Below, piece by piece: positions 55,723 to 60,162 of a stretch of DNA of 64,000 nt (position 1 is its first letter; every line of letters starts with the position of its first letter). Below the pieces are notes generated by a model. That model worked only from the letters and a program-made list of their open reading frames with translations, did no database searches and was not told the DNA's origin. The position numbers and the translations under genes were made by a program. The DNA comes from an uncultured Erysipelotrichaceae bacterium. Lineage in GTDB: Bacteria > Bacillota_I > Bacilli_A > Erysipelotrichales > Erysipelotrichaceae. The stretch is from NCBI GenBank assembly GCA_902761625.1, contig CACWLH010000003.1:1-64000 (forward strand), written 5' to 3'.

Positions 55723-57147
55723 TCAGAGATTTTCCCCGTTGCATGCGATGGTCTGTTTCATCCATTCATAGCTGTCCTTGAGACTTCTCTTCGCGGTTCC
55801 TTTCATCTCATTATCAAGATCGACATAGATGAATCCGTATCTCTTCTCCATTTCACAGGAGGAGCAGCTGACGATATCGATCGGTCCCCATGCATAGTAG
55901 CCGGTCACATCCACACCGTCATAGATCGCCTCTTTGACCTGTTTGAGATGTTCCTCATAGAATTCCACTCTGTACGGATCGTGGATCTTTCCGTCCTCAT
56001 CCACTTTGTCATAGAAGCCCATGCCGTTTTCAGTCACCATCAGCGGCAGCTGATATCTGTCCCAGTACTGGTTTAGGGCAACCCTGAGTCCGACCGGATC
56101 CAGTCCCCATCCCCATGCGTTGGCCTTTTTGATGAATTCATTTTTGACCATCTCACCGCTTTCGGTGACGTTACTTGTGTAATAGTAGCTGAACGAGATG
56201 AAGTCCACGGTGTTCTTCAGAGCTTCCTCATCTTCTTCAGCAATATCCACGTGAATGTTGTTTTCCTCATAGAAGCGCCACATATAGGAAGGAACCTCTC
56301 CCCTTGCGGACATGTCCGTGAAGTAATATGACAGATGATTCTGCTGAATCGCCGCCATCATGTTTTCAGAACTGCCGGTGGCCGGATGGGCGTTGTTATG
56401 GTAGAGCATGCAGCCGAACCGGAAGTCCGGATTGATTTCTCTGCCAATTTTCATCGCCTTTGCGCAGGCGACCAGTTCATTATGCAGACCCTGGTACTTC
56501 GCGTCTGTGAGGTTTTCAACCTGATCGGCCGGAATGCCGAGATGATTGAATGACTCATGTTCATAAAGATTGATCTGGTTGACCGTGATCCAGTATTTCA
56601 CTTTATCCTTGTATCTTCTGAAAATGGTCTCGCAGTATTTCACGAACATATCGATGGTTTTACGGTTGTACCATCCGTTGTATTTCAGAGCGACATTGAG
56701 CGGCATCTCATAATGGGAAATGGTGATCATCGGCTCAATATTATACTTTGCCATCTCATCAAACAGACGGTCATAGAAGGCAAGACCGCCCTCATTGGGC
56801 TTTTCATCATCGCCGTTAGGATAGATTCTTGCCCAGTTGATCGATGTGCGGATGGACTTTAGGCCAAGACCTGCAAGCAGTTTCAGATCCTCGGGATAGG
56901 TATGATAGAAATCGATTCCATACCGTTTGGGAAACATCTTCTCTTTGTCATTGAGCAGTTCATTCGCATAAGCGGCAGTCATTTCCGCGTTGGAACGTTT
57001 TTCGGGAGGCAGATTGCCTTTGTATTCATTAATGTCAGCGATGCAGAGTCCCTTGCCGTCTGTCTGCCAGGCGCCTTCGAGCTGGTTGGCCGCGACAGCT
57101 CCGCCCCAAAGGAAATTCTCGGGGAATTTTCTTGCGGTTTTCTTCAT
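55723..57147 (-). CDS. GH1 glycosidase with Gln in place of the acid/base Glu (myrosinase-like)
   Basis: The 474-aa protein starts [20 protein letters not shown] at 57147. The GH1 nucleophile Glu373 is present in VTENGMGF, and the phosphate-binding-like loop [16 protein letters not shown] is kept. The acid/base position, normally NE in TFNEP or TFNEIN, reads WITVNQIN: Gln191, codon CAG at 56577-56575. Plant myrosinases carry the same Glu-to-Gln change because their thioglucoside leaving group needs no protonation. It lies downstream of a sulfatase gene and a PTS EIIC gene. The substrate could be a (6-phospho-) thioglucoside or a glycoside with an acidic leaving group; loss of normal O-glucosidase activity is the alternative. 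Confidence 0.87.
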
Positions 57148-57258
57148 AAATGATATGACCTTTCTTTTTTTCAACTATACCATATCACCGCTCAATTTAG
57201 GCATGTCCCCTCTCACATGCCTGATCCGAAAAAAACTGCATGGATATGGGATTTTCTG

Positions 57259-58728
57259 TTATTCAGCCGGGGTAAGGCTTTCTTTTGTCAGGAATCTTGA
57301 GTCAAAGCCTCTGGGAACGGCATCGCATGTTTCCTGATACCATTCAAGCATCTTCATCTTCAGCTCAAGAATGATTGATTTGTATTCTTCGCAGTCAATG
57401 CGGTTGATCATTTCACGGGGATCCTTTTCAAGATCGTAGAATTCATCCCCGCCGCCGAGACGGAGAATATATTTGTATCTGCCATCGGTGATCATTGTGC
57501 CTTTGGCATGTGCCCTGTCATCTGCTTCGGCATTCATCTTGGCCCAGTAATCACTGGTTTTTGAGGGACCGGCATCGCCGTATTTGTGGTATTCGTCCGC
57601 CTGTTTTTCGCAAGGTCTTCTGCCGCCTTCCGAGAAAGCGTAGTCACGGATTATTGTTTGTGTATTTTCGATGACAGGTCTCAGGCTGATGCCGAACTGA
57701 TCATGGGTCGGGGTAACATCGGCATAATCCATAACGGTTGCGTAGAAGTCCACCAGTTCAGCCAGGGACTGTGTCTTACCGGGCATGACCTTCTCTCCTT
57801 TGGGAGGCTTGATCAGCAGCGGCACCTTTGTCAGGATATCCTCGAAGCTGTTCTGTGCTTTTTCAGGAAGACCGAAATCACCGGCAAAATCACCGTGGTC
57901 GGAAAGGAAGACAATCAGTGAGTCATCATAAATGCCTGCGTCTTTGAGGGCATCCACAATCATGCCGAACATGTCATCGACATAGGAGCACTGGGCAAGA
58001 TAGACTCTCTGCACCTCTTTCCACTGTTCTTCCGTAAATGCACCGAGATCTGCGAATTCACGCAGTTTGCGGATCATTTCCGATTTGCCCTGTGTATCTT
58101 TGAAATGAACCCTTTCTTCGATCAGATCCGGATTGATCCGGTCATAGTGTTCCTGATCGGTGACATAGGGTACATGGGGATTCATCCATCCGATGAACAG
58201 GCACAGCGGATCATCTGCCGGCTTCTGCCTGCGGATTCTTTCACAGGCTGCCAGTGTGTCATTGATATCTGTCTTTACTTCATCTATGACGCCGATGTAA
58301 TGGGAATACGGGAAGCCTTCGATGATTTCATGATTACCTGCAATCAAAGGTCTTTCGGGGATATTGATTTCATCGAACTGGGTTGCCATCAATCCCGGCA
58401 CATTGCCGGCAATGAAATCATTTCTTGTGTTCATCCAGACTTTATATCCGGCAGCTCTTAATTCAGCGAAAAGCGTATCGCTTCCCTCATGCATGAGGTA
58501 GTGCATGGTCCGGTAGCCGTGAACATGCGGATAGAGCCCGGTCAGAAATGAACACCTGGAAGGAACACAGACCGGATTCTGGCAATATGCGTTTTCAAAT
58601 GAAACAGCATCATTTTCAGCGAATGAATCAAGCCTCGGTGTGCTGGCGGCCGGATTGCCCATGTGGCCCATGGTGTTCCAGCGCATTTCATCAGGGTTGA
58701 TAATAATGATATTTGGCCGTTTTGTCAT
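57259..58728 (-). CDS. Sulfatase (formylglycine type), cytoplasmic
   Basis: The 489-aa S1-family sulfatase starts MTKRPNIIIINPDEMRWNT with no signal peptide. Asp13 begins the metal site. Cys54 in PVCVPSRCSFLTG is the CxPSR motif converted to formylglycine, so a maturase encoded elsewhere is required. FLSDHGDFAGDFGLPEK gives further metal ligands. A cytoplasmic location and the PTS/GH1 neighbours imply that the enzyme desulfates an imported, possibly phosphorylated, sugar compound. The gene lies between EIIC and the GH1 gene, with gaps of about 110-125 bases on each side and a terminator-like stem upstream. Confidence 0.92.
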   Translation of the reverse strand: MTKRPNIIIINPDEMRWNTMGHMGNPAASTPRLDSFAENDAVSFENAYCQNPVCVPSRCSFLTGLYPHVHGYRTMHYLMHEGSDTLFAELRAAGYKVWMNTRNDFIAGNVPGLMATQFDEINIPERPLIAGNHEIIEGFPYSHYIGVIDEVKTDINDTLAACERIRRQKPADDPLCLFIGWMNPHVPYVTDQEHYDRINPDLIEERVHFKDTQGKSEMIRKLREFADLGAFTEEQWKEVQRVYLAQCSYVDDMFGMIVDALKDAGIYDDSLIVFLSDHGDFAGDFGLPEKAQNSFEDILTKVPLLIKPPKGEKVMPGKTQSLAELVDFYATVMDYADVTPTHDQFGISLRPVIENTQTIIRDYAFSEGGRRPCEKQADEYHKYGDAGPSKTSDYWAKMNAEADDRAHAKGTMITDGRYKYILRLGGGDEFYDLEKDPREMINRIDCEEYKSIILELKMKMLEWYQETCDAVPRGFDSRFLTKESLTPAE

Positions 58729-58803: not shown

Positions 58804-58838
58804 AAAAAGGACAGCCTCATCAGCAGCGGCTGTCCTTT
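58804..58838 (-). terminator. Terminator-like stem after the PTS EIIC gene
   Basis: AAAGGACAGCC (58806-58816) and GGCTGTCCTTT (58828-58838) form a perfect 11-bp stem followed by TTTTTC on the minus strand. It would reduce read-through into the sulfatase gene. Confidence 0.8.
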
Positions 58839-58851
58839 GAGTCAGTCTTGA

Positions 58852-60162
58852 TTATTCAGCTGCAGCTTCTTCTTTGAGCGCCTGGCTGTCAACCGCTCTG
58901 AAGAACGGATAGTAGATGGCAGTGGAAACTGCGATCAGGATAGCCTGCAGTAAGATACCGCGCCAGTCAGCCCATGCCGCAAATGCGGAGAGCAGAATCG
59001 GTGTGCCGGTTGATACGTTGACGCCTACCATGTAAGGAACAAGACCGATTGCCATTGCGGCATAGCCGAGCAGGAATGTAACGATCGGAGCGACGATCAT
59101 CGGGATCAGCATCAGCGGGTTGAGAACCAGCGGCACACCGAAGACCATCGGTTCAGAGATTCCGCAGATACCGGAAGGAACAGCGATATTCTTGAGAGCC
59201 TTGTATCTTTCGGATCTGGAGAACAGAGCCAGACAGAGACACAGACCGATCGCGCAGCCGGAGCCGCCGATGTTGCCCATTGCGAACCATGCCGGCTGGA
59301 TGATGATGTTGGGCAGAGCCTGACCTGCGCCATAGGCAGCCAGGTTTTCCAGTGTGAGCTCAGTATAGAGAGCAGCCATGATGGATGTGGCAACCATACC
59401 GCCGTGGATACCGAAGAACCACAGGACGTTGCAGACGATCAGCAGGATGATGAATGTGAACGGACTTGCGGCAAGAGCTGTGAGAGGTGCCTTCAGCAGA
59501 CCGTAGATCAGCATTGTGACAGAGCCATAGGATGTCATGCCAGCGAGCATTCTGAAGACGATTGCCAGAGCTGCCAGAGCAAGTGCCGGAACAAGAGCGG
59601 AGAATGACTTGGAAATTGCGGGCGGAACGGAATCAGGCATTCTGATACCGATGTTCTTCTTGATGAAAATGTTGTGCAGGTTCGGGAACAGGATGCCGAC
59701 GATCATTGCTGTAAAGAGGCCGGCAGAGCCAAGGAATGTCATATTGACAGCACTTGCAACTGTGACGGAAACACCTGATTCAGCGTCTGTACCAGTAACT
59801 CCGAGCGGGATCATAATCAGGAATGCCATCAGGGCGATGGCGCCGCTGGCGATGGATTCTCTGTCGTCCATGCCGAGAACCTGTGCTTCTGCCCTGGCGA
59901 TCAGGAAGACTGCGTAAAGGGAGATCATGTTTGTTGTATAGTCAGCCGGAATCGCGAAGAACTGCTTCAGTCCTGTTGCGGTGATAAAGCTCTGGTACGG
60001 AGCGATGTTAAGGCTGGCAAGCAGTGTGAAGATCGCACCAACCATGACAACCGGCAGCATTGCGGAGAAACCGCCGCTGATGCCTTTGAGAATACGGTTT
60101 GAGCTGATTTTGTCAGAAATGGGAATCAATACAGCCTGAAGTTTTTCAATAAACCCTTCCAT
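58852..60162 (-). CDS. PTS EIIC permease, lactose/cellobiose family
   Basis: The 436-aa membrane protein has the CelB/LicC pattern (MEGFIEKLQAVLIPISDKIS, RILKGISGGFSAMLPVVMVG, FFGIHGGMVATSIMAALY, GICGISEPMVFGVPLVLNP). It would import and phosphorylate a beta-glucoside together with EIIA and EIIB proteins that are not in the window. Promoter TTGAAA-17-TATATT lies upstream with an RpiR-type operator over the -35. SD AGGAGG is strong. With the GH1 and sulfatase genes downstream, a sulfated beta-glucoside is a plausible cargo. Confidence 0.93.
   Translation of the reverse strand: MEGFIEKLQAVLIPISDKISSNRILKGISGGFSAMLPVVMVGAIFTLLASLNIAPYQSFITATGLKQFFAIPADYTTNMISLYAVFLIARAEAQVLGMDDRESIASGAIALMAFLIMIPLGVTGTDAESGVSVTVASAVNMTFLGSAGLFTAMIVGILFPNLHNIFIKKNIGIRMPDSVPPAISKSFSALVPALALAALAIVFRMLAGMTSYGSVTMLIYGLLKAPLTALAASPFTFIILLIVCNVLWFFGIHGGMVATSIMAALYTELTLENLAAYGAGQALPNIIIQPAWFAMGNIGGSGCAIGLCLCLALFSRSERYKALKNIAVPSGICGISEPMVFGVPLVLNPLMLIPMIVAPIVTFLLGYAAMAIGLVPYMVGVNVSTGTPILLSAFAAWADWRGILLQAILIAVSTAIYYPFFRAVDSQALKEEAAAE

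Follow-up and report, generated by a model that had tools for sequence, protein, structure and literature searches.

In a 64,000-nucleotide stretch of DNA from an uncultured Erysipelotrichaceae bacterium (contig CACWLH010000003.1, positions 1–64,000; hereafter the window), a gene for a glycoside hydrolase family 1 (GH1) protein with glutamine in place of the usual acid/base glutamate (GH1-Gln) lies beside genes for a sulfatase and for EIIC, a permease of the phosphotransferase system (PTS). A sequence-only reading of this stretch had proposed that the three genes form a pathway for mustard compounds (glucosinolates), in which uptake and phosphorylation by EIIC would be followed by removal of the sulfate and cleavage of the thioglucoside, the work of the sulfatase and of GH1-Gln, respectively. 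Our analysis does not support such a pathway at this locus. We favor instead, with a probability of roughly 0.6, two neighboring but functionally independent modules: a glutamine-bearing branch of the 6-phospho-beta-glucosidases and a cassette comprising an RpiR-family regulator, EIIC, and the sulfatase.

A GH1 clade with glutamine at the acid/base position

The GH1-Gln protein matched the GH1 profile PF00232 (E 1.7e-113), and among Pfam and NCBIfam models it came closest to the 6-phospho-beta-glucosidase subfamilies, yet scored below their cut-offs. As had been read from the letters, its acid/base position is occupied by Gln191 (within WITVNQIN, codon at 56577–56575), its nucleophile Glu373 is retained within VTENG, and its phosphate-binding loop (S427, K435, and Y437) is present; the coordinates given for the three genes were likewise correct. 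The residues that contact the glycone and its phosphate (Q22, H145, N190, E373, W420, S427, K435, and Y437) were invariant across 52 Gln- and Glu-type proteins. The AlphaFold2 model (pLDDT 94.6) found as its top structural match the 6-phospho-beta-glucosidase 6wgd (Z 56.8, root-mean-square deviation 1.6, 454 residues aligned), and the fold is shared more generally with BglA, AscB, and BglA-2 (6wgd, 3pn8, 2xhy, and 4ipn; Z 54–57, 44–51% identity), as are the nucleophile, the phosphate-binding Ser, Lys, and Tyr, and the PTS operon context. Whereas GH1 6-phospho-beta-glucosidases have two catalytic glutamates, every member of the GH1-Gln clade keeps the nucleophile and has glutamine at the acid/base position, and in the core of the clade the helix that follows carries a conserved Glu198.

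The glutamine is a specific change, as the sequence-only reading had maintained. All 25 other GH1 genes of the same genome that cover the position encode glutamate there, and all 30 closest relatives of GH1-Gln found in a search of 294 related genomes carry NQ. A tree of 110 proteins united all 58 Gln-type sequences in one clade with support 1.0, which implies that the change from glutamate happened once in this sample, and the glutamine was invariant in 45 of 45 aligned Gln-type proteins. The close relatives and the monophyletic clade together rule out an isolated single-species mutation or a sequencing error. The clade is under purifying selection: comparison of GH1-Gln with its 84–93% relatives gave a ratio of nonsynonymous to synonymous rates (dN/dS) of about 0.035–0.07, with dN of 0.04–0.10 and dS >1 and partly saturated. 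The window's genome as a whole has a large GH1 set, some 26 or more genes in 2.9 Mb.

Gln-type proteins were found in Erysipelotrichales, Lachnospiraceae, Enterococcus, Niallia, Synergistaceae, Escherichia, and Enterobacter, with loci on GTDB contigs and plasmids from Longibaculum muris, Longicatena caecimuris, Lacrimispora celerecrescens, a Synergistaceae metagenome-assembled genome, Enterococcus ratti, hulanensis, larvae, and gilvus, Escherichia sp. ESNIH1, Niallia taxi, and Enterobacter ludwigii. This census is incomplete, as the contig scan used a pattern without the glutamine and so returned mostly Glu-type matches. When the Escherichia sp. protein was compared with complete E. coli genomes, only BglA-like partial matches were recovered. 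In E. ludwigii the gene is carried by a conjugative IncF plasmid of a strawberry isolate, together with genes for EIIC and a carbohydrate porin (L275). A literature search, which covered few subscription journals, found no account of a bacterial GH1 clade with a glutamine acid/base residue, and the branch is large and apparently undescribed.

Plant myrosinases (1myr, 1e4m, and 7z1i) have glutamine at the same position within W-(I/L)-T-(I/V)-N-Q (WITINQL in 7z1i, WLTINQL in 1myr), so the parallel originally drawn with them holds. The resemblance is real but, because of the tree, is best read from these sequences as convergent, having arisen separately: myrosinases are a distant GH1 branch that acts on unphosphorylated glucosinolates, whereas the GH1-Gln clade has the phosphate site. 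The two also differ seven residues past the glutamine, where myrosinases have an arginine with a role at the aglycone and the core of the clade has Glu198. All 40 core Gln proteins have this glutamate, and the aligned Glu-type proteins do not conserve it; four of five divergent Gln-type proteins lack it, yet retain the glutamine.

In the mechanism that we propose for this PTS-linked clade, the general acid would have been lost once while the nucleophile and 6-phosphate site were kept. Its substrates would most likely be imported 6-phospho-beta-glucosides whose leaving group can depart unprotonated (thio-, acyl-, acidic aryl, or similar), with thioglucosides among the possible ones. The glucosyl-enzyme would form on Glu373 and be released by water, aided by a base other than residue 191.

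The sulfatase belongs to a separable cassette

The adjacent sulfatase has the CVPSR motif and lacks a signal peptide, as originally described, and it combines the C-x-P-S-R motif with a sulfatase profile match, as S1 formylglycine sulfatases do. The genome also encodes an anSME-like radical SAM protein (327.9 bits, below the cut-off of 349.45), a candidate formylglycine maturase. Across the 294 genomes, sulfatases 71–100% identical to that of the window are common in its genus and mostly lie apart from GH1-Gln. The RpiR-EIIC-sulfatase trio itself recurred without GH1-Gln in three loci (L194, L195, and L200, with an 83% EIIC), and more distant sets occurred in L215–L217.

Two junctions delimit the cassette (Table 1). 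At the same site in G067 (L040/L080), a gap of ~94 base pairs, devoid of RpiR, EIIC, and sulfatase genes, separates the diaminopimelate dehydrogenase gene from a 92%-identical GH1-Gln. At an unrelated site in G014 (L190), a 95% sulfatase together with its promoter region is fused to a remnant of the RpiR end (window 60952–61114), and EIIC is missing. These junctions indicate that RpiR-EIIC-sulfatase behaves as a unit that excludes GH1; either insertion in the window or loss in G067 is possible. A dedicated partnership of GH1-Gln and sulfatase is rejected for the window's genus by the cassette-free site and the L190 remnant. Within the window, the segment between EIIC and the sulfatase (58800–58850) folds strongly (-22.9 kcal/mol, z -4.7) over a terminator-like hairpin.

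Sampling of Gln-type loci told the same story. A sulfatase was present in just 2 of 55 other such loci: L044 in G038, which is the same locus as that of the window (97.4% DNA identity), and L073 in G146. None of 66 Glu-type GH1 loci had one, although these came from other taxa and we therefore draw no statistical contrast. Conserved co-occurrence of EIIC, sulfatase, and GH1-Gln, as the three-gene proposal anticipated, was thus not observed across genomes; Gln191 homologs nearly always sat in sulfatase-free loci, one of them at the very site of the window, and the trio recurred without them. Such sulfatase-free loci are an outcome that the sequence-only reading had itself named as refuting. What stands of the proposal is the Gln-type GH1, its phosphate loop, and a general PTS linkage, but not the union of GH1, sulfatase, and EIIC in one dedicated set. 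(In L044, G038:C10, the GH1-Gln frame is split by a frameshift into open reading frames of 343 and 104 residues, with the break near residue 92–95.)

In other genera than that of the window, GH1-Gln usually lies in an operon ordered PRD regulator, EIIB, EIIC, EIIA, GH1-Gln, without a sulfatase, as in Lacrimispora (L084), Longicatena (L082), and Enterococcus gilvus (L273); a HAD phosphatase gene sometimes follows (where loci lacked annotation, the HAD and PRD assignments were read from sequence). In L055 (9947–11389 and 7034–8491), a protein that looks like GH4 follows GH1-Gln and a ROK-like protein precedes it, again a reading of the sequence.

Judged from its genes, the cassette probably acts on a PTS-imported sulfated sugar, which would lose its sulfate in the cytoplasm. 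YdjC-type deacetylase genes adjoin the sulfatase in six loci (L193, L195, L196, L199, L203, and L205), a hint that the substrate may be a sulfated amino-sugar glycoside. A pneumococcal island has been described that combines a ROK regulator, a cellobiose-type PTS, a sulfatase, and a linked sulfatase-modifying factor, with a sulfated host sugar as its suspected substrate (PMC3283741). The island and the window both have a Lac-family PTS by the sulfatase; the island differs in its ROK regulator and modifying factor, and no GH1-Gln is described there (PMC3283741).

Table 1. Features of the GH1-Gln locus and the neighboring cassette (window positions).
Feature	Position	Strand	Remarks
GH1 family protein, 6-phospho-beta-glucosidase type (GH1-Gln)	55723-57147	-	474 aa
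Separable RpiR-EIIC-sulfatase cassette	57248-61114		approximate extent; absent at same site in L040; sulfatase and RpiR remnant in L190
Cytoplasmic S1-type sulfatase	57259-58728	-	CVPSR formylglycine motif, no signal peptide; profile and motif
Promoter-like site (TATAAT) before sulfatase, after hairpin	58778-58807	-	consensus match only
Strong intrinsic-terminator-like hairpin between EIIC and sulfatase	58803-58840	-	GGACAGCC...GGCTGTCCTTTTT, with T run
PTS EIIC, lactose/cellobiose family	58852-60162	-	no EIIA/EIIB gene adjoining
RpiR-family regulator, divergent from EIIC	60322-61095	+	cassette member

Elsewhere in the window (47183–49449), a rhamnulose-1-phosphate aldolase gene neighbors a gene for a 473-residue protein that matched neither Pfam nor NCBIfam models at the thresholds applied.

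Weighing the alternatives

Several observations weigh against two independent modules. In the window, as in the closely related G038, the sulfatase and GH1-Gln genes are adjacent on one strand, and the gap between them has weaker structure (z -1.78) and no strong terminator, which means that transcription may continue into GH1. GH1-Gln stands by itself among unrelated genes, with no PTS genes, in many genomes of the window's genus, such that the PTS linkage of the window copy is an inference. The YdjC assignment came from profiling one representative and clustering the others. Finally, the divergent operon L073 (EIIC-EIIB-EIIA-GH1(Gln)-sulfatase) places GH1-Gln only 15 base pairs from a sulfatase, which means that the two can cooperate in at least one lineage. 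L073 is the one independent case in which the link may be real, and a sulfated substrate is possible for some members of the clade.

L073 has a counterpart in L217 (G093), a full operon of EIIC-sulfatase-GH1-EIIB-EIIA in which the GH1 is of the ordinary Glu type (NEIN motif) and EIIC is 50% identical to that of the window; another PTS operon of G093, which lacks a sulfatase, contains a GH1-Gln (L056). To judge by gene order and content, both operons encode a probable PTS pathway for a sulfated beta-glucoside. That they combine the same enzyme classes would fit a model in which GH1, sulfatase, and EIIC of the window jointly process a sulfated O-glucoside rather than a thioglucoside. We consider this rather unlikely, given that the two modules occur apart in the window's genus and that a terminator separates EIIC from the sulfatase.

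The glucosinolate pathway itself gains from the myrosinase-like motif, from the adjacency of sulfatase and GH1-Gln in the window, in G038, and independently in L073, and from a precedent: Companilactobacillus farciminis degrades sinigrin by PTS import (CfPttS) and a GH1 6-phospho-beta-glucosidase (CfPbgS), sharing PTS and GH1 with the Gln clade, although its PTS is of the IIBCA type and no sulfatase takes part (PMC8660893). Yet the rarity of the sulfatase in Gln-type loci, the separate movement of its cassette, and the glutamate seven residues past Gln191 where myrosinase has arginine, which does not favor an anionic aglycone, leave this pathway very improbable. Members of the clade occur in diverse bacteria, from the gut and from the environment, whose general diet is unlikely to be glucosinolates; because of this spread, glucosinolates are unlikely as a substrate of the whole clade, but their use by single members is possible. 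If the sulfatase is dismissed as an unrelated neighbor, GH1-Gln might still be a PTS-linked, myrosinase-like 6-phospho-thioglucosidase, consistent with the convergent WIT(I/V)NQ motif, the kept phosphate site, the PTS operons, and the sinigrin precedent (PMC8660893). This is a possible but rather unlikely candidate: no thioglucoside-specific gene lies nearby, the published text does not state whether the acid/base residue of CfPbgS is Gln or Glu (PMC8660893), and the taxa and habitats of the clade extend beyond glucosinolate-bearing diets.

Two further alternatives concern catalysis. Glu198, present throughout the core, not conserved in Glu-type proteins, and placed on the helix after Gln191 in the predicted model, could have taken over as acid/base, making GH1-Gln an ordinary O-6-phospho-glucosidase; its absence from most of the divergent Gln-type proteins makes this unlikely. 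That GH1-Gln is a catalytically dead paralog retained for binding or regulation would accord with the lost general acid and the frameshift-split G038 copy, but we regard it as highly unlikely in view of the invariant nucleophile, glycone, and phosphate sites, the strong purifying selection, and the fact that GH1-Gln is repeatedly the sole hydrolase of its PTS operon. Beside the two-module reading, a broader idea is possible though not probable: a widespread bacterial GH1 subfamily may have independently evolved the myrosinase solution. It would cleave 6-phospho-thioglucosides, or other activated glucosides, taken up through the PTS, with no general acid supplied by the enzyme, and a cytoplasmic sulfatase would have joined it in some lineages for sulfated substrates.

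Implications

The Gln clade is a testable variant of a known GH1 family, and it means that a whole bacterial GH1 clade lacks the textbook acid/base residue and yet is scored and annotated as ordinary 6-phospho-beta-glucosidase or GH1. The separable sulfatase cassette beside it cautions that gene adjacency alone should not set a substrate. Should its members turn out to be thio- or acyl-glucosidases, the Gln clade would account for the use, by gut bacteria and by those associated with plants, of compounds on which standard enzymes perform poorly, and it would be a second natural instance of the myrosinase mechanism.

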